Below are positions 2,448-36,047 of a stretch of DNA of 64,000 bases, piece after piece. Numbering within the stretch: position 1 is the first letter of the stretch; each line of letters begins with the position of its first letter. Position numbers and translations under genes: made by a program. Under the pieces are notes generated by a model. The model saw only the letters and a list, made by a program, of their open reading frames with translations. It searched no databases and was not told the origin of the DNA. This DNA comes from Vampirovibrionales bacterium (GTDB lineage: Bacteria; Cyanobacteriota; Vampirovibrionia; Vampirovibrionales; Vampirovibrionaceae). The stretch is taken from assembly GCA_029262635.1 (NCBI GenBank), contig JAJCZA010000017.1, forward strand, positions 1 to 64,000, given 5' to 3'.

Positions 2448-3284
2448 ATGATCACGCTTGATCTTCTTGAGCAGACATTTGGCCCGGCACGGCAACAGGG
2501 CAGGGAATGGCATTTTCCATGCCCTCAGTGCCTTTATCAATTCACAGCCTGCGAGAAAAACGGGCAGGTTCTGGTGTATTGCCACTCCTGCGCCTCGAAC
2601 CATCATCTTCTGAGTGCCTTGGGCTCAAGTCATACATTCACCCGTTCCGCATCTTTCCAAAAAACACAAAACAGTAATTTGGAAACCCGACAATGGGCGT
2701 TGCGAATCTGGAATGAGACCATTGCTATAGAAAACACCCTGGCCGAGTGCTATTTGAGAAGACGCGGGATCAATCTTTCGTTCCCTCCCGTCATCCGGTT
2801 TCATCCCGGTTTGAAACATACGGAAAGCGGCCAGTATTTTCCGGCGGTGATTTCATCCATTACCGACCCGACGGGAGAATTTATTGCAATTCATCGAATC
2901 TGGCTGTCTCCAGATGGCAAAAAAGCCCCTGTGAAACCTTCAAAAAAAACATTGGGCAGCTTTCGGGGCGGTATCATCCAGCTGGCAGAACCTTTAGACA
3001 TGCTGGCCTTAGCTGAAGGGCTGGAAACCGCGCTGAGTGTTCAGCAGTTGAGCGGACTGCCAACTTGGGCAAGCGTTTCATCAGCCAATATGAAAAATAT
3101 ACGCCCCTCTGCCAGCGTGAAAACCGTCTATATTTTTGCGGATCATGACCCGGCAGGAATCAAAGCTGCGGATCAGACAGCGGCCATATTGGCACGAGAA
3201 GGGTTTCATGTGGCGATGGCCGTTTCTCCTGTCCCTGGCAGTGATTTTAATGACATATTGTTGAAAGGAGTTGTGCCCGAATGA
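2448..3284 (+). CDS. Zinc-finger/Toprim domain primase-like protein
   Basis: CPQCLYQFTACEKNGQVLVYCHSC zinc finger; AEGLETALS and VYIFADHDPAGIKAADQTA Toprim motifs. Confidence 0.85.
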   Translation: MITLDLLEQTFGPARQQGREWHFPCPQCLYQFTACEKNGQVLVYCHSCASNHHLLSALGSSHTFTRSASFQKTQNSNLETRQWALRIWNETIAIENTLAECYLRRRGINLSFPPVIRFHPGLKHTESGQYFPAVISSITDPTGEFIAIHRIWLSPDGKKAPVKPSKKTLGSFRGGIIQLAEPLDMLALAEGLETALSVQQLSGLPTWASVSSANMKNIRPSASVKTVYIFADHDPAGIKAADQTAAILAREGFHVAMAVSPVPGSDFNDILLKGVVPE

Positions 3285-4804
3285 ACACCAATCACATTAT
3301 GGATTTGGCACAAACCTATCAGAAGCAATGGCCAAAACCGGACATGGCATTAATCAGCGGGGGGCGAGAGAAGGCTCCTGAGATTCCATTGGCTGTGTTC
3401 GGGGATGTCTGGTCATCCTGGATGAAAGTAGCGGCCAATGGACGTTCAGCACCAGTTGATTATATCGTAGGTGGTGTCATGGCTGTTGTATCCGCTTTAG
3501 TTGGTAACGTAGCTACTGTTTCACCCTGGCCGGACTGGAATCAATCAACCACCCTGTGGGTAGCATGTGTCGGCAACCCTTCTGCCGGAAAAACACCGGC
3601 CCTGGATTTTGTCCTCTCACTGCTGCGCACTCTTGAAAGCGAACAGGCCAAGGATCTCAAACAACAGCGTCAGGACTATGCCCAGAAGCTTGAGACGGCA
3701 CGGGCAATCAAGGATAAATGGCGATTGGAAGTCAAAACCGCCACACAGGAAAATAAACCTGCTCCCCCCATGCCGGATGAGGCCGTTGAACCTGAACCAC
3801 CCACGGAACCCCGGCTGCTAGTCGTTGATGCCACCGTTGAATCATTGGCAAAAATTCATTCCCGAAATTTACGGGGTTTGCTCTTGTTCAGGGATGAACT
3901 TTCCGGTCTAATTGAAGGGTTCGGGCGCTATGGCTCTCAGGGGGCTGACCGGGCTTTTTACAATGAAGCCTACAATGGAAATCGTTACGTGATGGATCGG
4001 GTCAAAAATGATGAAAATCCGATTCGTATTCCCCGGCTGTCGCTTTCCATTGCGGGGGGCATTCAGCCGGACAAACTGAAAAGCGCCATACTGGGCGGAG
4101 ATGATGACGGCCTGAGTGCACGATTTTTGTATTTCTGGCCTGATCCGGTAACCCCAACACGTCCCAGGGGGAAAACGGACAAAACCATTGCCCTTGAAGC
4201 CCTCCGGCGAATTTTAAACATCCCCATGCCCTTGAATGAATTCGGAGAACCTACTCCCAAGGGTTACCCTCTGGCATCCGAAGCGGTTGATTGTTTCCAT
4301 GATTATCGTCTGGAGTTAGCCAGGGAAGAGGAAGGAGCCAGTGGCTTATACCTTTCCTTTCTGGGCAAGCTTCCGGGTGTGGTTCTGAAACTGGCACTGA
4401 TTATTGAATTTATGCGCTGGGCCGTTGAACCTTTCAGCAGTCCTGAACCCCCCGGCCAGATTTCAAAAGAATCGGTTTATGGTGCACTGGGTCTTGCGGA
4501 CGCCTACTTCAAGCCGATGGCAAAGCGGGCTTTCGGCGAGGCTGCACTCCCCCGCCATGAACGTGATGCAGCCGCTCTGGCTCGTTTTATCTTCAAAGCT
4601 CGTCCGGAAACCGTCAACGCCAGAAAACTGCAACAAAAACGGCTCGGTGGTATCAACAAGGCCGAGAGAATGTATGCGGCATTGAATGAACTGGAAGAGG
4701 CCGGTTGGATCGATCCTGTACCCAGTCGGGAAGGCGAAACGGCAGGTCGAAAAAAGGCTGATTACGACGTCAATCCCAGAATTTGGGAAACATCCGATGA
4801 ATAA
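3281..4804 (+). CDS. DUF3987 (YfjI-like) domain protein, replication-associated
   Basis: NPSAGKTPALDFVL Walker-A-like and LLLFRDELSGLIEGFGRYG; ATGA overlap with the primase. Confidence 0.75.
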   Translation: MNTNHIMDLAQTYQKQWPKPDMALISGGREKAPEIPLAVFGDVWSSWMKVAANGRSAPVDYIVGGVMAVVSALVGNVATVSPWPDWNQSTTLWVACVGNPSAGKTPALDFVLSLLRTLESEQAKDLKQQRQDYAQKLETARAIKDKWRLEVKTATQENKPAPPMPDEAVEPEPPTEPRLLVVDATVESLAKIHSRNLRGLLLFRDELSGLIEGFGRYGSQGADRAFYNEAYNGNRYVMDRVKNDENPIRIPRLSLSIAGGIQPDKLKSAILGGDDDGLSARFLYFWPDPVTPTRPRGKTDKTIALEALRRILNIPMPLNEFGEPTPKGYPLASEAVDCFHDYRLELAREEEGASGLYLSFLGKLPGVVLKLALIIEFMRWAVEPFSSPEPPGQISKESVYGALGLADAYFKPMAKRAFGEAALPRHERDAAALARFIFKARPETVNARKLQQKRLGGINKAERMYAALNELEEAGWIDPVPSREGETAGRKKADYDVNPRIWETSDE

Positions 4805-5096
4805 ATGGCTTGAGCTTTTCTACAGTGAAACAAAAGCTACAGTATCTACAATAGCTACAAAAGCAGACCCTATTGTTGCAAACGTAGATAATGTAGCTAA
4901 CGTACAAGCGTTGAAAACCGAACTTGAAAAATTGCGTTTGAAGTGGAAAGCCTGTCTGTGGATTCGAACACAGCCTCATTACAAAGATCTTTCACCCGGA
5001 TGTCTCCAGTCAGAGAAAAAAGCCTATGCCCGGATGCGCTCACGGGCAAGTGAAATTAAAAGAATCCTTTCAACAATCCAGCATCAAGAGGACTAA
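4797..5096 (+). CDS. Hypothetical protein
   Basis: ATG at 4797 overlaps the DUF3987 stop; MNKWLELFYSETKATVSTIATKADPIVANVDNVANVQ... Confidence 0.55.
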   Translation: MNKWLELFYSETKATVSTIATKADPIVANVDNVANVQALKTELEKLRLKWKACLWIRTQPHYKDLSPGCLQSEKKAYARMRSRASEIKRILSTIQHQED

Positions 5097-5191
5097 TAAT
5101 CTTGCAAACTTCCATTTTATTCTGTTTCTTTCAACACCCCTAATCCCCCTGTTATAGTGGAATGATAGGTATTTAACAGGAGGCACTTCGT

Positions 5192-5716
5192 ATGGCCGGC
5201 GCTTCTCATAAACTGAAAATAGAATGGATTCTAACAGAGAAACTGGTTCCTCATGCCAACAACGCCAAGCAACATCCCGAAGAGCAGGTAGACCAGATTG
5301 CGGCATCCATTCAGGCTTTCGGTTTCAATGATCCCATTGCAATTGATGAAAACAATACCATTATTGAAGGACATGGCCGTCTGCTGGCCGCCAAAAAACT
5401 GCAACTTGAAAAAGTGCCGATCATCCAGCTTTCCCATCTCAGCGAAGCCCAGAAGAAAGCCTACATTCTGGCTCATAACAAGCTGTGTCTGAATACCGAC
5501 TGGAATCTGGATCTGTTGCGTTTGGAGCTGGAACGTCTTCAGGAACTGGATTTTGAAGACCTCTCATTAACGGGTTTCCGAAATGCCGAAATCGGAATTC
5601 TCTTTGCCGAACCCTCAATCCCTGATACGGAACCCGAACTGGATGAAACTCTTGTGGAGAACAGTACGACAAAGCAGATTACCTGCCCTGAATGTGGAAC
5701 GAGCTTCAATGCCTGA
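5192..5716 (+). CDS. ParB N-terminal-like nuclease domain protein
   Basis: WILTEKLVPHANNAKQHPEEQVDQIAASIQAFGFNDPIAIDENNTIIEGHGRLLAAKKL. Confidence 0.85.
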   Translation: MAGASHKLKIEWILTEKLVPHANNAKQHPEEQVDQIAASIQAFGFNDPIAIDENNTIIEGHGRLLAAKKLQLEKVPIIQLSHLSEAQKKAYILAHNKLCLNTDWNLDLLRLELERLQELDFEDLSLTGFRNAEIGILFAEPSIPDTEPELDETLVENSTTKQITCPECGTSFNA

Positions 5717-6725
5717 AAATGCATTCAAGGTTGTATCCACTTTTGCGGGCTGTGGCGGTTCGTCCCTCGGTTATAAAATGGCTGGGGGTGAGGTTGCGCT
5801 AGCTATCGAATGGGAAGCAAATGCTTGTGACACCTACCGCCTGAACCATCCCGATACCCCTGTCTTTCAGCGTGATATCACGACAGTTACCAGCGCCGAG
5901 ATACTGGATGTGATTGGAATGAAACCGGGTGAACTGGATATTCTGGACGGCTCTCCACCTTGTCAGGGGTTCTCAACAGCGGGAAAACGCCGAATTTCTG
6001 ATCCAAGAAACCATTTATTTAAGGAATACGTCAGGCTACTGAAAGAATTGCAGCCGAAGGTTCTGGTAATGGAAAACGTAGCTGGCCTGGTGCGCGGACA
6101 GATGAAACCCGTCTTTGTAGAAATCCTGACTGCGCTAAAGGAAAGTGGTTATCAGGTTCGGGCCCGCCTGATGGACGCCCAGTATTACGGCGTTCCCCAG
6201 CGACGCAAGCGTGTCATTTTTATTGGTGTCCGGCAAGATCTGGATATTTCACCTTCTCACCCTCTACCTGAAACAAGACCCATCCTCCTTAAAGAAGCTT
6301 TGGCAGACTTGAAGCCACCATTAAAAGTACTGTATCCCAAAGGAACAGCCGCCCGGCTTGCCGAATGCCTGAAGCCGGGTGAGGATGGTTCCAGGTTGAG
6401 AACCCGTCTTGGTGGCAAGGTGCGCGATTATTCCCTGAAGCGTTTGTCCTGGTACAAGGTGGCTCCGACAATCTGCAAGTCTGTCCGACCCGGACAATGT
6501 GGCCTCCTGCATCCCGAAGAGAGCCGTTACATGGCTACTGAGGAACTAAAACGGATTGCATCTTTCCCGGATAATTACCAGTTTACCGGCTCCCTGGAAG
6601 AGCAATGGGCCCGTATTGGCAACAGTGTTCCTCCACTTCTGATGAACGCCATTGCCGGGCATATCCGGGATCATATTCTTACTCATGTTCCTGAACTTCG
6701 GAGTTATAAAAAAAGGAATGCCTAA
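5709..6725 (+). CDS. DNA (cytosine-5-)-methyltransferase
   Basis: FAGCGGSSLGY, PPCQGFSTAG, ENVAGLV and YGVPQRRKRV motifs; start chosen at 5709 (MPENAFKVV). Confidence 0.93.
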   Translation: MPENAFKVVSTFAGCGGSSLGYKMAGGEVALAIEWEANACDTYRLNHPDTPVFQRDITTVTSAEILDVIGMKPGELDILDGSPPCQGFSTAGKRRISDPRNHLFKEYVRLLKELQPKVLVMENVAGLVRGQMKPVFVEILTALKESGYQVRARLMDAQYYGVPQRRKRVIFIGVRQDLDISPSHPLPETRPILLKEALADLKPPLKVLYPKGTAARLAECLKPGEDGSRLRTRLGGKVRDYSLKRLSWYKVAPTICKSVRPGQCGLLHPEESRYMATEELKRIASFPDNYQFTGSLEEQWARIGNSVPPLLMNAIAGHIRDHILTHVPELRSYKKRNA

Positions 6726-7254
6726 TCCGCCCAAAAAACTGACCGTAAAAGAATTGGCCGAGGTTGAGACCTTGGCCGGACTCGGCATGCGTTTTGAGGA
6801 TATTGCGTTGACCAAAGACATGTGTCTGGATACCCTCAAAAAATATGCCGATGAGCAACTCCAGCGTGGAAAGGCCAAGGCCAAAGCCCAGATCATGCAA
6901 ACAGCCTATAAAATGGCGGTTTCCGGGGAAAATCCGACGATGACCATCTTCTGGCTAAAAACACAGGCTGGCTGGAGCGAAAATCGCAATAACACCGCTA
7001 ACCGAAACAATCTGGCCGAAATGGTCAAAAAATCCGACAAACCGATCCAGATTATTGTTGCCTATCTGGCCGAGACCATGGGACAAGTCAGTCATGGGGA
7101 TGTTGATCCCCGTGTGGCCTCCTGTATTGCCCGCATTGCCGGAGTGTTCCTGAAAGCCGTGGCTCAGGGCGAACTGGAAGAACGCCTTGCCCTGCTGGAA
7201 TCGACTATAAAATCGTCGGAACCCCAGTTACTGGATTTGGAGCTGGAACCATGA
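6718..7254 (+). CDS. Phage terminase small subunit-like HTH protein
   Basis: LAGLGMRFEDIALTKDMCLDTLKKYADEQLQRGKAKAKAQIMQTAYKMAVSGENPTMTIFWLKTQAGW; overlaps the upstream stop by 8 bp. Confidence 0.6.
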   Translation: MPNPPKKLTVKELAEVETLAGLGMRFEDIALTKDMCLDTLKKYADEQLQRGKAKAKAQIMQTAYKMAVSGENPTMTIFWLKTQAGWSENRNNTANRNNLAEMVKKSDKPIQIIVAYLAETMGQVSHGDVDPRVASCIARIAGVFLKAVAQGELEERLALLESTIKSSEPQLLDLELEP

Positions 7255-8186: not shown

Positions 8187-8924
8187 ATGAACCATTGTGC
8201 ATTTTTTGTGCATTTACGCCATTTGATTGGAAGTTATGGGAAGCACGGCCGGCGCAGACGGCCCAAACGTCAGGATGTCCTAGTGCTAATTCATCAGCAG
8301 GCCAAATCCCCTAATTATGTATGGACGGTGGACTTTGTGTACGACACACTGGCCAGCAATCGAAGTATCCGTCTGTTATCGGTGGTGGACGAGTTTACCC
8401 GTGAGTGCTTGTGCCTGAGGGTGGAATACTCATTGAAGGCAGCGGATGTGCAGACCACGCTGGAAACCCTGTTCAAGGATTACGGCAAGCCGCTGTATCT
8501 CAGAAGCGACAACGAGTCTGAATTTATCGAAAAGAGCCTGCAAAAATGGCTGAAAGAAAAAGGCACCTTGCCGTTATTTATTGACCCAGGGAGTCCGTGG
8601 CATCGCAAAGCATCCCCTTGGGGGAAAACGGCAAATGTGAGAGCTTTAATGGACGGTTACGGGATGAATGTCTGAATGCCGAATGGTGGGGGAACCTGCG
8701 GGAAGCCCAGAACGTGATTGAGATGTGGCGAGACCACTACAACAAGGAACCTCCCCACAGCTCATTAGGAGAGCAGACACCTCATTCCTTCGCCGCCGCA
8801 AACAGTCTGGCTAGCCAGACTGTTTGAACCCCGTTTTTCTCACTTGATCTGGTACGCATTTAGGGTCAAGACCATATGATCCCACTCTCTAGTTTTGACT
8901 AGATCAATTTTTGGGGGGCAGTCA
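8187..8924 (+). pseudogene. Remnant of IS3-family transposase OrfB (N-terminus lost, frameshifted) with remnant right end
   Basis: rve-domain sequence VWTVDFVYDTLASNRSIRLLSVVDEFTRECL...LRSDNESEFI then a frame break at ~8600-8640 (PGSPWHRKASPWGKTANV vs PGSPWENGKCESF in the 22-kb copy); ATATGATCCCA...GGGGGGCAGTCA resembles the intact right end. Confidence 0.85.
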
Positions 8925-9074: not shown

Positions 9075-9365
9075 ATGAAAGATAAGAAAAAGTACTTAAA
9101 ACCTCTTAGTGTGGCTATAGTAGCCCTATTAGCTGCCACCGGTGTATCGGATGCCAGTGTCTCCGACACTAGTATTGAAACTGCGCTAGAAAAGGCGCAA
9201 GCCGTTGTGATGGAACAACAGGTAGAATCCACACAACCCGATTTTCTGATGATCGAGCCAGCGGAACAAATGGATGCAAATAAAGCTGCATACCATTACT
9301 CTCACCGCTCACACTCGTCTCACCGGTCGCATTCCTCTCACCGCTCGCACTATTCCGGTTACTAA
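9075..9365 (+). CDS. hxsA: His-Xaa-Ser repeat precursor-like protein (HxsA2-like)
   Basis: N-terminal hydrophobic leader (KKYLKPLSVAIVALLAATGVSDA) and C-terminal HYS-HRS-HSS-HRS-HSS-HRS-HYS-GY, directly upstream of hxsD/B/C-like genes. Confidence 0.82.
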   Translation: MKDKKKYLKPLSVAIVALLAATGVSDASVSDTSIETALEKAQAVVMEQQVESTQPDFLMIEPAEQMDANKAAYHYSHRSHSSHRSHSSHRSHYSGY

Positions 9366-9383
9366 GATTTCGAGATTATCGCC

Positions 9384-9722
9384 ATGACTAAGGAGTCGAC
9401 GACTCCGCTCGTCAAAAATGACGACGGAAGTTTGATCATATTATTTCCGAAGTCCGTGTATAGCTTAGATGCTGTCAAGAAAGCCTCCTATAAGTTTACG
9501 GACTCCTGCTCGTTTCTAATTAATGAGCAGAACACTGCATATGAAGTTCTATGCAAACCAACCGCTGATATACCGTCTAAGGCTTTGGATGAGCTCGTCA
9601 ATTCCTTCTGTAACGAGGTCCTCGACCAGGATCTCAGGGAACGTATTGCTTCCGAGACCCATGCCGTAAGAAGCTTGATACTAGCACAGGCCTTCTCGAA
9701 AACTTCTCTTCTGGAGGGGTAG
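9384..9722 (+). CDS. hxsD: His-Xaa-Ser system protein HxsD-like
   Basis: 112 aa; FCNEVLDQDLRERIASETHAVRSLILAQAFSKTSL; position between precursor and radical SAM gene. Confidence 0.75.
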   Translation: MTKESTTPLVKNDDGSLIILFPKSVYSLDAVKKASYKFTDSCSFLINEQNTAYEVLCKPTADIPSKALDELVNSFCNEVLDQDLRERIASETHAVRSLILAQAFSKTSLLEG

Positions 9723-9724
9723 GA

Positions 9725-11197
9725 ATGGCACTTGCATCGACTAAGTTTAAAGATCTAGACTTTTTCAACCAAAGTCTAGAAAGCGGTTACAAGCTGCTAC
9801 CATTTAACTTTATCAAGCTCGATGACTCCCGATATGTCATTACCAATATTGCCGGTGAATATTTAGTCATCACCAAAGAAGATTTATATGCTGTCGCAAA
9901 TAAACAACTGTGCCCGGGCTCACCAGTCTATAACACTTTGAAATCCAAGCACTTTATATATGATGACGACTCCTCTGTAGCTCTTGAACTACTGGCGCTA
10001 AAATACCGGACAAAGATGGCCCCTCTTGCTAACTTCACAGGGCTTCATCTCTTTGTAACTACTTTACGCTGCGACCACTCTTGCCCATACTGTCAAGTTT
10101 CACGGCAAAGTGAAGACAAAGCGGCTTTTGACATGACCCCAGAGATCGCTGACAAAGCCATTGACTTTACTTTTCAAAGCCCTTCTAACGAAATCAAAAT
10201 CGAGTTCCAAGGTGGTGAATCTCTACTTAACTTCGAAATGGTTAAATACGTTGTAGAAGAAGCCACAAAGCGAAACCAAACTGAAAATCGTGACTTACAG
10301 TTCGTGATAGCCACAAACCTTTCACCACTTACGGATGGGATGCTTGACTTCTGCCTTAAGTACGACATTCTGATATCCACCTCATTAGACGGTCCGGAAG
10401 AGCTCCACAATGGAAACCGCCCTCGTCCGGGCAAGGACAGCTATGAAAAAGTGATGACGGGCATGCAAAAAGTTAGAGAACTACTAGGACCGGACAAGCT
10501 TGGGGCATTGATGACCACCACAAAAGATTCATTAACACAGGCAAAACCAATAATTGATGAATACGTTGAGCAAGGCTTTTCTTCAATATTTTTACGCCCA
10601 TTAAGTCCCTACGGGTTTGCCATTAAAACAAAGTCATTTGATGCATACCAAACCGAAGAATGGCTTAAATTTTACAAAGAAGGTCTCGACTATATCATCG
10701 AGTTGAACAAACAGGGCTTGTATTTTATAGAAGACTACACAGCGCTTATTCTCAACAAAATGCTAACACCCTTTGGGACTACTTATGTAGATCTTCAATC
10801 ACCGTCCGGAATGGCAATCAGCGCAATTGTTTTTAACTATGATGGCGACATCTATGCGTCAGATGAATCAAGAATGTTAGCTGAAATGGGAGAAAAGCGA
10901 TTCCGCTTGGGCAACCTTCTTCAAGATACGTACGAAGGTGTCATGCTTTCTGATGCTCTCTTAGGACCACTGGAGGCAACTATCACGGAAAGCATGCCTA
11001 TGTGTAACGATTGCGGTTTTCAAAACTATTGCGGAAGTGACCCGGTATACCATTACGCAACTCAAGGTGATATCATTGGAAACAAGGCCTTCAGTGGATT
11101 TTGCAAGAAAAATATGACCATCATGCGTCATCTGATTAAGCTGTTAGAAGACGACCCAGAAGCACGGGACGTTCTATTGAGTTGGGTGAGGGTATAA
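9725..11197 (+). CDS. hxsB: His-Xaa-Ser system radical SAM maturase HxsB-like
   Basis: TTLRCDHSCPYCQVS (CxxxCxxC), IEFQGGESLLNF, SPASM-like C-terminal cysteines MCNDCGFQNYCGSD. Confidence 0.85.
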   Translation: MALASTKFKDLDFFNQSLESGYKLLPFNFIKLDDSRYVITNIAGEYLVITKEDLYAVANKQLCPGSPVYNTLKSKHFIYDDDSSVALELLALKYRTKMAPLANFTGLHLFVTTLRCDHSCPYCQVSRQSEDKAAFDMTPEIADKAIDFTFQSPSNEIKIEFQGGESLLNFEMVKYVVEEATKRNQTENRDLQFVIATNLSPLTDGMLDFCLKYDILISTSLDGPEELHNGNRPRPGKDSYEKVMTGMQKVRELLGPDKLGALMTTTKDSLTQAKPIIDEYVEQGFSSIFLRPLSPYGFAIKTKSFDAYQTEEWLKFYKEGLDYIIELNKQGLYFIEDYTALILNKMLTPFGTTYVDLQSPSGMAISAIVFNYDGDIYASDESRMLAEMGEKRFRLGNLLQDTYEGVMLSDALLGPLEATITESMPMCNDCGFQNYCGSDPVYHYATQGDIIGNKAFSGFCKKNMTIMRHLIKLLEDDPEARDVLLSWVRV

Positions 11198-11199
11198 AC

Positions 11200-12411
11200 A
11201 TGCTTCAACTTCATACAACGAAAATCGAATGTCTAACCACCTCCAGCGAAGAGGCCTTCATTGCTCGGCTTAGTGAGAATGACCAATATCCGTTGCCGCT
11301 TAGAGGAAAAGAAATCTTTCTTGCACCGGAAACACATTCGGGAAAGTTGCCTGACGGGTTCAGAGCATACTTTATTTTGAGAAAAAATTTAGACAGCGTT
11401 GAAGCAAATCAAGATTTTCCTAATGTCTTCATCATTCCCAATGATCAGCATTACCTCCGTGATGGAGATGTTATCCGTTTCGATCCAAAAAGGATCAAAC
11501 TTCACACGCTTTACCGTAAAAATTCACAGCACAATTCATTACTGGTAACTGAACGCTGTAACAACTACTGTCTAATGTGCTCACAGCCTCCTAAAGACAT
11601 TGATGATAGCTACATTGTTCAGGACTTACTTGTTGCAATTCCGCTAATGAGGCGTGAAACTGAAGAAATTGGCATTACCGGTGGAGAACCGACCATTCTT
11701 GGAGATGATTTAATTAGAATCCTCCGAGCCTTAAAAAACTATCTTCCATCCACATCAGTGCACATACTGTCGAATGGTAGAAATTTTGCCAATATTGATC
11801 TGGCTCGGAAAGTTGCAGGGGTAAAGAACCACGATCTAATGATTGGAATTCCTCTATATGCAGACATTTCAAATATTCATGACTATGTCGTTCAAGCAGA
11901 TGGAGCCTTTGATGAAACGATTAAAGGAATTATGAATCTGAAAAGACACGGAGTAAAAGTAGAAATCCGTGTAGTGATTCATAAACAAACATATGAACGT
12001 TTGCCTCAATTGGCTGAATTCCTAGCGCGGAACCTCCTCTTCGTTGATCACGTTGCCCTCATGGGGCTAGAAATGATGGGTTTCACAAAAGCCAATATAG
12101 ATGAGCTGTGGGTAGATCCTATCGACTATCAGCCCGAGTTAGTTCGTGCAATCGATGTTCTGGCTAGGTACAACATGAATGTTTCAATCTATAACCACCA
12201 GCTCTGTCTGCTTGATAAGCGGTTGTGGCCTTTCAATACAAAAAGCATTAGCGACTGGAAAAATGAATACATGCCAGAGTGCGAACCTTGTACTCTAAAG
12301 GAACAATGCGGTGGTTTCTTTAGCTCGGCTCTTTTTAAGTATAGTGATCATATCCAGCCGTTTTCAGAGTCTGAAATGCCAACTAAAAATGCACCTCAGC
12401 CCACTCTGTGA
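11200..12411 (+). CDS. hxsC: His-Xaa-Ser system radical SAM maturase HxsC-like
   Basis: VTERCNNYCLMCSQPP (CxxxCxxC), ITGGEPTILGDD; C-terminal CEPCTLKEQCGG; start MLQLHTTKIE at 11200. Confidence 0.83.
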   Translation: MLQLHTTKIECLTTSSEEAFIARLSENDQYPLPLRGKEIFLAPETHSGKLPDGFRAYFILRKNLDSVEANQDFPNVFIIPNDQHYLRDGDVIRFDPKRIKLHTLYRKNSQHNSLLVTERCNNYCLMCSQPPKDIDDSYIVQDLLVAIPLMRRETEEIGITGGEPTILGDDLIRILRALKNYLPSTSVHILSNGRNFANIDLARKVAGVKNHDLMIGIPLYADISNIHDYVVQADGAFDETIKGIMNLKRHGVKVEIRVVIHKQTYERLPQLAEFLARNLLFVDHVALMGLEMMGFTKANIDELWVDPIDYQPELVRAIDVLARYNMNVSIYNHQLCLLDKRLWPFNTKSISDWKNEYMPECEPCTLKEQCGGFFSSALFKYSDHIQPFSESEMPTKNAPQPTL

Positions 12412-13207
12412 GCCCTCGCTGTTCAATTTCTTGCTCCACGTTATCCGGTAGCTCCCATAGCAAGTCTAAATCGGTGAACTCTTCGATCTCATGAATAGTG
12501 GTTACATGATCAATGATCCGATCACCCCTAGGAGTGGCCTGCTCCATCATAAAGGCGGCTGTCTGAATGGTGTCTGAGCTTGAACCCGTCTGCACTGCTA
12601 CCACCTTCCAATAGCCTGAAGGAACCACATGGTCGTCATCCGCGTTGGGAAGCTCGTCCATATCAGTTTGATACAGCGGACCGGTCATCACCCAAACAGT
12701 CCCGTATTCCATTACTAAATCCCGCACCTTACCCTCAAGCTCCTTCCAAGTCCCTCGGTTTAAATCCTCATGTTGAGGCGTGATATTACTCATGAAATTG
12801 ACCTGGCTAGCATACTTGGTGCCCTTAAATGATGCCAGTGGAGCTTGGTGTCCCCGATCATAGCCAAGGGCAGAATACGCCCCCTCGTAATCGTCAATGG
12901 CTGCCTCACCCTCAAGGGTTTCTGATTCATCCAGCCATGGGTCAGAGTGCCATTCTCTGAACAGGTCCAATGTTCCCATTACCTCATGTGGGGTTAGTCG
13001 GTATGCCACCCAATCAGCAAACTTGGTTTCATCGTTGTTGGATAGGGCATAGGTATCCCGGATGATGAGATCATTGGTTTCAGGGGTTCCTGCCGGGTAG
13101 CCGTAGAAAAAATGCTTACAGTGGATTTCGGGGTTATCCGCAAATACCGGGGAAGTTACCAAAAGTATAAAACACAACAGCAATACAGTATCTTTAAAGG
13201 GTCTCAT
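12383..13207 (-). CDS. Secreted DNA/RNA non-specific (NUC/EndoG-type) endonuclease
   Basis: Signal peptide MRPFKDTVLLLCFILLVTSPVFA; ALGYDRGHQAPLA (DRGH), NFMSNITPQHEDLNRGTWKELE. Confidence 0.88.
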   Translation of the reverse strand: MRPFKDTVLLLCFILLVTSPVFADNPEIHCKHFFYGYPAGTPETNDLIIRDTYALSNNDETKFADWVAYRLTPHEVMGTLDLFREWHSDPWLDESETLEGEAAIDDYEGAYSALGYDRGHQAPLASFKGTKYASQVNFMSNITPQHEDLNRGTWKELEGKVRDLVMEYGTVWVMTGPLYQTDMDELPNADDDHVVPSGYWKVVAVQTGSSSDTIQTAAFMMEQATPRGDRIIDHVTTIHEIEEFTDLDLLWELPDNVEQEIEQRGLTEWAEVHF

Positions 13208-13364
13208 TCTCGATTCGCCTTTCTTTTTCAACGATCTGACCGATTCGTCCCTCGGAAACCCCATATTCTTTGGCCAAAGACACAATACGTTCACCGGCCT
13301 TATACCGCTGGTATATTTCCCGGTTTCTTTCTGCTTTGGATAGGGGGTGACTATATCTCACCAT
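13194..13364 (-). CDS. Small HTH-like protein (56 aa)
   Basis: Reverse strand: MVRYSHPLSKAERNREIYQRYKAGERIVSLAKEYGVSEGRIGQIVEKERRIENETL*; resembles sigma-region-4/Trp-repressor-type HTH; overlaps the nuclease start. Confidence 0.6.
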   Translation of the reverse strand: MVRYSHPLSKAERNREIYQRYKAGERIVSLAKEYGVSEGRIGQIVEKERRIENETL

Positions 13365-34504: not shown

Positions 34505-36019
34505 ATGAAAGCCGTAATTTTCACACGTGTTTCCAGTGTGGGACAAGAAGAGGGAGTATCTTTAGATGCTCAAGATCAAAAACTACAAGACTACTGCCAA
34601 GATAATCACTTCGATATTATCCAAACTTTTCGAGCCGTAGAATCTTCAACACGAGGCGAACGAAAAAAGTTTTATCAAGCTCTTGAGTTCATTAAAAAAG
34701 AAAAAGAAACTATTGCTCTTGTGGTTCACTCTACCGATCGACTTTTTCGAGGGTTTAAAGAATATGGCATCATCGAAGAATTAATAGAAGAAGAACAACT
34801 TGAAATCCATGTGGTAAATGAACGATTAATACTCAATAAAGAAACAGAATGGGCTAAATTATTGCAATTCGATTTCTCAATCCTCGGAGCCAAAATGTTC
34901 ATTGCTCAATCTAAAGCACACATCAAAAAGGTTATTGCTTACAAAATATCTAAAGGCGAAGTCATTGGCAGAGTCCCCACAGGCTACCTTAACTATCGAG
35001 ACCCCATTACGGGCAAAGCAAGCGTTATTTTAGACGAAGGTAGAGCAATCCTCATCAAACGCCTGTTTGTCTCTTATGCCTCCGGTATCTATTCTCTGCG
35101 AGAGCTAACCTTTAAAGCCGAAGAATGGGGCTTAACCAATCCCAAAACAGGAAACGCCCTTGTCCATGCCAGCATTTGCGACGTTATAAAAAACCCCTAC
35201 TACATGGGCTTTATGCTCTACAAAGGAAATCTTAAACCCCACGTTTACCCCCCAATTATTGATGAAGCCCTTTTTAATCGTTGTCAGGCACTTCGAGAAA
35301 GTAATCGAACAAAACCAATTAAAGCGAGTAAAAAGCCTTTTGTTTTCCGAGGGTTAATGAAATGCGCTCAATGTGGTTGTTCTATATGCTCCGATATTAA
35401 AAAAGGGAAATATATCTACCTTTTCTGTACCAAACAAAAAGGGAAAGACATATGTAATAGTAAAAGAATTCGGGAAGAAGTCGCTTTAGAAGTTGTTGAA
35501 GAGGTGCTAAACAGCCTTGTTATACCTGACTCATTGCTTGAAGAAATTCGAAAATACCTTATAGAAACTAATTCAAATGAGAAAAAAGACTATAAATCCG
35601 TCGTTGAAGGCTTTCAAAAAGAATTTAACAAAGAAGAAAAGAAACAAGAGCGCCTGTTTGAACTTTATCTTAGCGGGAGTATTACAGCGCCTAAGTACGA
35701 CAAAACTCGCTTACAAATCGAGAAAAAGATACAACAGCTAAGCTTGCTCATCTCCTCCGGCAGGAAAGATCATAAAGAGTTCCAAGACTCTTTAGTGCTC
35801 TTGCTTAAAGTCGTTTCAAATGCTGGCAAAATCTTCAAAAGTTCGAAAATAGAACAAAAACGCAAGATTATCGGATTTGTATTTTCGAACTTATATTTAG
35901 ACGGGCAAGAAGTCCACTATAAGCTAAACCGACCGTTTGATAAACTGGTCGGTTTGCCTAAAGATAAAGTATGGTGGAGGATACCGGATTCGAACCGGTG
36001 GCCTTCTCAATGCCATTGA
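34505..36019 (+). CDS. Large serine recombinase; ORF C-terminus reads through antisense tRNA-Ala sequence
   Basis: IFTRVSSVGQEEGVSLDAQDQKL, VVHSTDRLFRG; recombinase zinc ribbon CAQCGCSICSDI; C-terminus VWWRIPDSNRWPSQCH is tRNA-derived. Confidence 0.93.
   Translation: MKAVIFTRVSSVGQEEGVSLDAQDQKLQDYCQDNHFDIIQTFRAVESSTRGERKKFYQALEFIKKEKETIALVVHSTDRLFRGFKEYGIIEELIEEEQLEIHVVNERLILNKETEWAKLLQFDFSILGAKMFIAQSKAHIKKVIAYKISKGEVIGRVPTGYLNYRDPITGKASVILDEGRAILIKRLFVSYASGIYSLRELTFKAEEWGLTNPKTGNALVHASICDVIKNPYYMGFMLYKGNLKPHVYPPIIDEALFNRCQALRESNRTKPIKASKKPFVFRGLMKCAQCGCSICSDIKKGKYIYLFCTKQKGKDICNSKRIREEVALEVVEEVLNSLVIPDSLLEEIRKYLIETNSNEKKDYKSVVEGFQKEFNKEEKKQERLFELYLSGSITAPKYDKTRLQIEKKIQQLSLLISSGRKDHKEFQDSLVLLLKVVSNAGKIFKSSKIEQKRKIIGFVFSNLYLDGQEVHYKLNRPFDKLVGLPKDKVWWRIPDSNRWPSQCH
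35926..35955. repeat. Inverted repeat AAACCGACC-GTTTGATAAACT-GGTCGGTTT
   Basis: 9-bp perfect arms, inner GTTT/AAAC pairing with a 1-nt bulge. Confidence 0.85.
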
Positions 36020-36047
36020 GACGCGCTACCAACTGCGCCAATCCCCC
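35972..36047 (-). tRNA. tRNA-Ala(GGC), complete with encoded CCA
   Basis: Reverse complement GGGGGATTGGCGCAGTTGGTAGCGCGTCTCAATGGCATTGAGAAGGCCACCGGTTCGAATCCGGTATCCTCCACCA folds as a cloverleaf. Confidence 0.95.

Follow-up and report, generated by a model that had tools for sequence, protein, structure and literature searches.

The hxs operon and its surroundings

The window, a 64,000-nucleotide stretch of DNA, carries four closely spaced genes, hxsA, hxsD, hxsB and hxsC, on the forward strand between positions 9075 and 12411 (Table 1). The open reading frames confirm a preliminary description of this locus as a tight operon in which a 96-residue peptide with a seven-unit His-Xaa-Ser (H-x-S) end is followed by a protein of about 112 residues and two radical SAM proteins, and the earlier boundaries were reproduced to the base. 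The genes are separated by 18 bp (hxsA-hxsD), 2 bp (hxsD-hxsB) and 2 bp (hxsB-hxsC), the last interval becoming a 16-bp overlap if hxsC is read from the upstream TTG. Sequence makes the ATG at 11200 the likelier start of hxsC, since it lies 2 bp past the hxsB stop and gives the MLxL start found in relatives. Promoter and terminator signals around the operon do not exceed chance expectation, and neither a transporter nor a peptidase gene is present in it. No second HxsB in the genome scores above cut-off.

Table 1. Coordinates of features in the window and in related loci (prefix L, locus number).
Feature	Position	Strand	Details
Phage-like primase, helicase, ParB-like, C5 cytosine methylase and terminase small subunit genes	2448..7254		Replication/packaging remnant
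IS3 transposase fragment	8187..8675		Upstream of hxsA
hxsA-like precursor	9075..9365	+	96 aa, C-terminus HYSHRSHSSHRSHSSHRSHYSGY; signal-peptide-like N-terminus, linker with DFLMIEP strand, seven H-x-S units, GY
Signal-peptide-like segment MKDKKKYLKPLSVAIVALLAATGVSDA	9075..9155	+	Hydropathy maximum 2.89; n-region net charge +4 ahead of hydrophobic core
Seven tandem His-Xaa-Ser units (HYS HRS HSS HRS HSS HRS HYS)	9294..9356	+	Six-frame motif scan
hxsD	9384..9722	+	112 aa; TIGR03976, 80.9 bits (cut-off 50)
hxsB, radical SAM maturase	9725..11197	+	490 aa; TIGR03978, 631 bits (cut-off 370)
hxsC, radical SAM maturase	11200..12411 (ATG); open frame 11182..12411 from TTG, 409 aa	+	TIGR03977, 409.2 bits (cut-off 267.9)
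DNA/RNA non-specific endonuclease gene	12383..13294	-	PF01223 (Endonuclease_NS); secreted-looking, convergent with hxsC
Type I restriction gene hsdM	23.8 kb		
Phage-type serine integrase gene	34505..36019		End overlaps 3' end of tRNA-Ala gene
tRNA-Ala gene	35972..36047		
HxsA with peptidoglycan-binding C-terminus	L042:4864-5622, L043:4824-5585, L029:8488-9123, L031:8664-9242		PG_binding_1 match
TehB-like SAM methyltransferase gene downstream of hxsC	L006:8652-9209, L008:8733-9227, L014:8620-9234, L026:4105-4632	+, +, +, -	
Complete hxsADBC	L027:5299-8608		Leptospira phage KF114877
IS1 transposase abutting shortened hxsD	L029:5069-5998		Klebsiella plasmid pKPN39427.1
Eight-unit HxsA	L037:8830-9555		Calothrix plasmid

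Membership of the His-Xaa-Ser family

HxsB, HxsC and HxsD each exceed the cut-off of their own NCBIfam model. The precursor is the exception to the expected profile matches (TIGR03976-TIGR03979): its best match is indeed the HxsA model TIGR03979, and the hit is significant (43.7 bits, E 2.8e-11) yet falls under the cut-off of 121.65. It also scores below the cut-offs for HxsA2 (NF038296, 34.3 against 48 bits), HxsA4 (26.5 against 55) and HxsA3 (18.2 against 65), and assignment to an HxsA subtype was dropped. Five of ten related precursors that adjoin a full hxsDBC set are likewise below all HxsA cut-offs (L024, L026, L032, L035 and L042), so the models look narrow, rather than the window precursor being a foreign gene. 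Membership of the family is therefore taken from the tandem seven-unit array, from its position beside hxsD, hxsB and hxsC, and from the scores of these three proteins, and not from the precursor score. By sequence, the locus is a complete, slightly divergent Hxs operon with a plainly HxsA-like precursor. The family is already catalogued, and the window copy adds a member.

The operon was compared with 37 related loci, 17 of them from named genomes, five from relatives of the window, 13 from plasmids and two from phage records. With the window included, the order A-D-B-C occurs in 33 of 38 loci, in keeping with the earlier remark that gene set and order are those of Hxs families; in the exceptions hxsA follows hxsC, the order is otherwise changed, or the locus is broken by the end of a record or an insertion. 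An H-x-S protein is encoded near hxsB, and on its strand, in all 38. Occurrence is patchy (4 of 98 relatives; 4 of 392 genomes from the same phylum). A 7.5-kb unverified fecal phage scaffold (L028) shows a D-C-B-A arrangement with HxsA3, and on Klebsiella plasmid pKPN39427.1 the shortened hxsD beside an IS1 transposase is missed by the HxsD profile while hxsB, hxsC and hxsA remain.

Some loci have additional neighbors. The TehB-like methyltransferases found next to hxsC come from Pseudomonas, an acidobacterium and a relative of the window, share 30-44% identity between these groups, and represent a possible extra tailoring enzyme that the window operon lacks. The endonuclease gene convergent with hxsC in the window was considered as a fifth Hxs partner and rejected: no similar gene was found at the other loci, and its adjacency to hxsC is accordingly taken as chance. 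Thermonuclease genes near hxsC on Nostoc and Methylobacter plasmids are probably also a coincidence.

A mosaic mobile region

Around the operon is a mosaic mobile region, to which the phage-like, IS3, restriction and integrase genes of Table 1 belong. The serine integrase gene and the tRNA-Ala gene that it overlaps are likely to mark the right boundary of an integrated element (34505-36047); no repeat of the tRNA-Ala end that could serve as an attachment site was found within the window, at whose first base the contig begins. Elsewhere, 403 plasmid records in PLSDB match HxsB, and the Klebsiella plasmid records that do so number 316. Hxs genes are complete in a Leptospira phage, are present on seven IMG/VR contigs, and occur, together with integrating-element genes, in a gene list for Pseudomonas aeruginosa (PMC8446631). 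This distribution fits a mobile cassette.

The H-x-S array

Nowhere else in the six frames of the window do three or more H-x-[ST] units occur in a row, and among 20,000 shuffles of the precursor protein none contained even four consecutive units. Its units vary in their synonymous codons (CAT or CAC for His; TCT, TCA, TCG or TCC for Ser), which argues that selection has kept the repeat at the protein level and that it is not the result of recent DNA slippage. Across 37 distinct arrays the third position is Ser in all 227 units and never Thr, which the search pattern permitted; His was fixed by that pattern and its invariance is no independent result. The middle residue is variable (S, R, Y, A, Q and others).

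The maturases and HxsD

Both radical SAM enzymes carry two sets of cysteines. In HxsB these are a CxxxCxxC motif (residues 116, 120 and 123) and a C-terminal CxxC...C...C (427, 430, 436 and 460), both kept in nearly all aligned sequences, with the one gap due to a truncated frame. Alignment of HxsC likewise reveals a conserved CxxxCxxC and a second, later CxxC...C set. The AlphaFold2 model of HxsB (mean pLDDT 79.4) begins with a beta3-alpha3 domain at about residues 24-103. A beta3-alpha3 PqqD-like winged helix is the topology of the leader-binding RRE, and the model is that of an RRE-like domain joined to a radical SAM/SPASM-type enzyme.

Foldseek aligned the HxsB model over about 480 columns with its top structural matches, CteB and TigE (PDB 8vpo), covering nearly the full length of both, followed by anSME and ChlB; the RiPP epimerase EpeE matched more weakly. 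The anSME structures 4k36-4k39 are matched by sequence and also by fold (E about 1e-13), and HxsB scores 76.6 bits against the anSME family TIGR03942. Against models of cyclophane maturases it is far below every cut-off (YhhB 70.8 of 445 bits, GrrM-OscB 59.8 of 310, FxsB 36.8 of 370). A viperin (pVip) or defence role was rejected, as the matches are weak, at superfamily level only (26-29 bits), and none is specific to viperin.

HxsD is modelled with good confidence (pLDDT 87.5) as beta-beta-alpha-beta-beta-alpha-alpha, and comparison with PDB structures gave no confident match. The model lacks the PqqD topology, and a role for HxsD as the RRE was rejected on both grounds; it is probably an accessory protein.

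HxsA as a probable exported protein

A signal-like N-terminus, defined as a hydrophobic 10-mer of at least 1.5 preceded by net positive charge, is present in 34 of 36 HxsA precursors and in 1 of 63 HxsD, HxsB and HxsC controls. The window precursor lacks a strict AxA cleavage site, and cleavage is probably near SDA|SV. In most HxsA proteins a short hydrophobic strand lies some 10-20 residues ahead of the array, DFLMIEP in the window protein, and is a putative recognition site for the maturases.

The window HxsA is a short form that ends without a C-terminal domain. In HxsA of Adhaeribacter, Hymenobacter, Klebsiella and Aeromonas, the array and a Ser-rich linker are followed by a domain that passes the PG_binding_1 gathering score, and the array is internal in planctomycete, acidobacterial and Calothrix proteins too. 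The C-terminal part of the eight-unit Calothrix protein resembles the end of the model for the hormogonium morphoprotein TftA (39.9 bits, below cut-off), a further hint of a role at the envelope.

Signal-like N-termini, peptidoglycan-binding C-termini and internal arrays together favor HxsA being an exported envelope protein rather than a small excised RiPP. The suggestion of an exported surface protein in the preliminary description is strengthened by these features of the relatives and by the operon's lack of transporter and peptidase. The product was also said there to be poorly characterised, and indeed no characterised Hxs product was found in the literature searched, mostly outside subscription journals, so that a published product may exist; in that literature Hxs is mentioned solely in annotations or in a prediction attributed to Haft and Basu, reportedly in a study from 2011.

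A proposed pathway and its alternatives

The two radical SAM enzymes are predicted to modify the H-x-S units, but how? Every one of the seven window units has His at position i and Ser at i+2, the aromatic/acceptor arrangement of triceptides. This fits the geometry of a cyclophane and makes a repeated His-Ser cyclophane the first choice. Precedents exist for each half: HaaB, YhhB and ScaB form a bond from His C2 to the beta-carbon of residue i+2, and MscB links Phe to the beta-carbon of Ser (PMC11002830). Repeated action on one substrate also has a parallel in TvgB, a radical SAM/SPASM enzyme that modifies a tandem-repeat core many times (PMC9062424).

In the pathway we propose, HxsA would be synthesised with a Sec-type N-terminus, and while it is still cytoplasmic the RRE-like domain of HxsB would dock onto the segment ahead of the array. 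With HxsD as an accessory, HxsB and HxsC, each a radical SAM enzyme with an extra cysteine set, would then act on the individual His-Xaa-Ser units, most likely through a bond between the His ring and the beta-carbon of Ser at i+2 that gives a triceptide-like three-residue cyclophane, with a loss of 2 Da per unit and up to 14 Da in all. The modified protein would be exported, and at the cell envelope could plausibly present a rigid, metal-binding array of His. The idea of metal binding comes by analogy from noursin, in which a His crosslink is needed to bind copper (PMC10206099). We infer the crosslink, a division of labour between HxsB and HxsC, export and metal binding, and give the account of His-Ser cyclophanes made by HxsB and HxsC, followed by export to the envelope, a probability of roughly 0.45. 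A fuller version is more doubtful: that His(C2)-Ser(C-beta) cyclophanes recur on proteins exported by Sec and in part anchored to peptidoglycan, that they form a rigid metal-binding patch at the envelope, disseminated by plasmids and phages, and that the product is a modified structural protein and not a diffusible RiPP.

The conservation of two distinct maturases for a single motif suggests a second reaction besides the crosslink. HxsB and HxsC may make different changes, or the chemistry may be another radical reaction such as epimerisation, His methylation or a different oxidation. The methyltransferase gene that follows hxsC in four relatives of three groups is consistent with this, but it is absent from the window and from most loci, and EpeE is a weaker match to HxsB than the enzymes above; such chemistry seems on balance unlikely.

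The main rival starts from an observation that counts against the crosslink, namely that anSME, a Ser/Cys oxidiser, is about as close to HxsB in structure. Here HxsB and/or HxsC would turn each unit's Ser into formylglycine, leaving an exported row of His-x-aldehydes that might condense or bind ligands. Formylglycine comes from Ser or Cys, and the presence of Ser without Thr in all 227 units fits this; the loss of 2 Da is the same, and anSME is among the best matches of HxsB in both sequence and structure. However, the His that recurs at i-2 in every unit is left unexplained, no sulfatase-like partner is encoded, and CteB and TigE match HxsB at least as well. We regard oxidation to formylglycine as unlikely.

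The general logic of radical SAM RiPPs, and the position of the window array at the extreme C-terminus behind a leader-like stretch, would allow the array to be cleaved off and released as a bacteriocin or signal. The operon offers neither a peptidase nor an exporter for this, though, Sec-like N-termini occur throughout the family, and in several relatives the internal array is followed by 100-220 residues, in some including the peptidoglycan-binding domain, so that release of a small RiPP is improbable. It is very improbable that the operon is a decayed or inactive copy carried in a mobile element, as the adjoining IS3 fragment and phage-type mosaic might suggest, because the four frames are intact, the catalytic cysteines are retained, and perfect retention of H and S accompanies synonymous codon variation.

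Relation to known systems

The window shares with the catalogued Hxs systems the four genes, their commonest order, the H-x-S array, the two radical SAM maturases and placement among mobile elements; it differs in its precursor, which is short, without C-terminal domain and below all subtype cut-offs. The triceptide maturases (HaaB, YhhB, ScaB, MscB and OscB), to which HxsB is distantly similar, also pair an aromatic residue i with a modified residue i+2, and both His as i and Ser as i+2 are known there (PMC11002830). Hxs differs in having HxsC and HxsD, in an array tiled every third residue, in a crosslink that is predicted, and in an HxsB below the maturase cut-offs. In the TvgB/TvgA system for poly-cyclopropylglycine a radical SAM/SPASM enzyme likewise acts on a tandem-repeat core (PMC9062424), but TvgB modifies Val within a TVGG repeat, a different motif, and HxsC and HxsD are absent. 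Noursin is a model for the possible function of Hxs and not for its enzymology, as its His-to-butyrine crosslink is made by a LanKC lanthipeptide enzyme rather than a radical SAM enzyme, and the genes are unrelated.

The enzyme anSME acts on a single residue of a sulfatase. The core of HxsB is close to it in structure and sequence, and Ser could be its target as well, but HxsB adds the N-terminal RRE-like domain.

Hxs is a recognised radical SAM cassette, carried on plasmids and at least one phage, whose chemistry is testable. If Hxs makes a His-Ser crosslink, the triceptides would gain a further chemistry. The exported and peptidoglycan-binding forms of HxsA suggest a function at the cell envelope, which is open to direct test.
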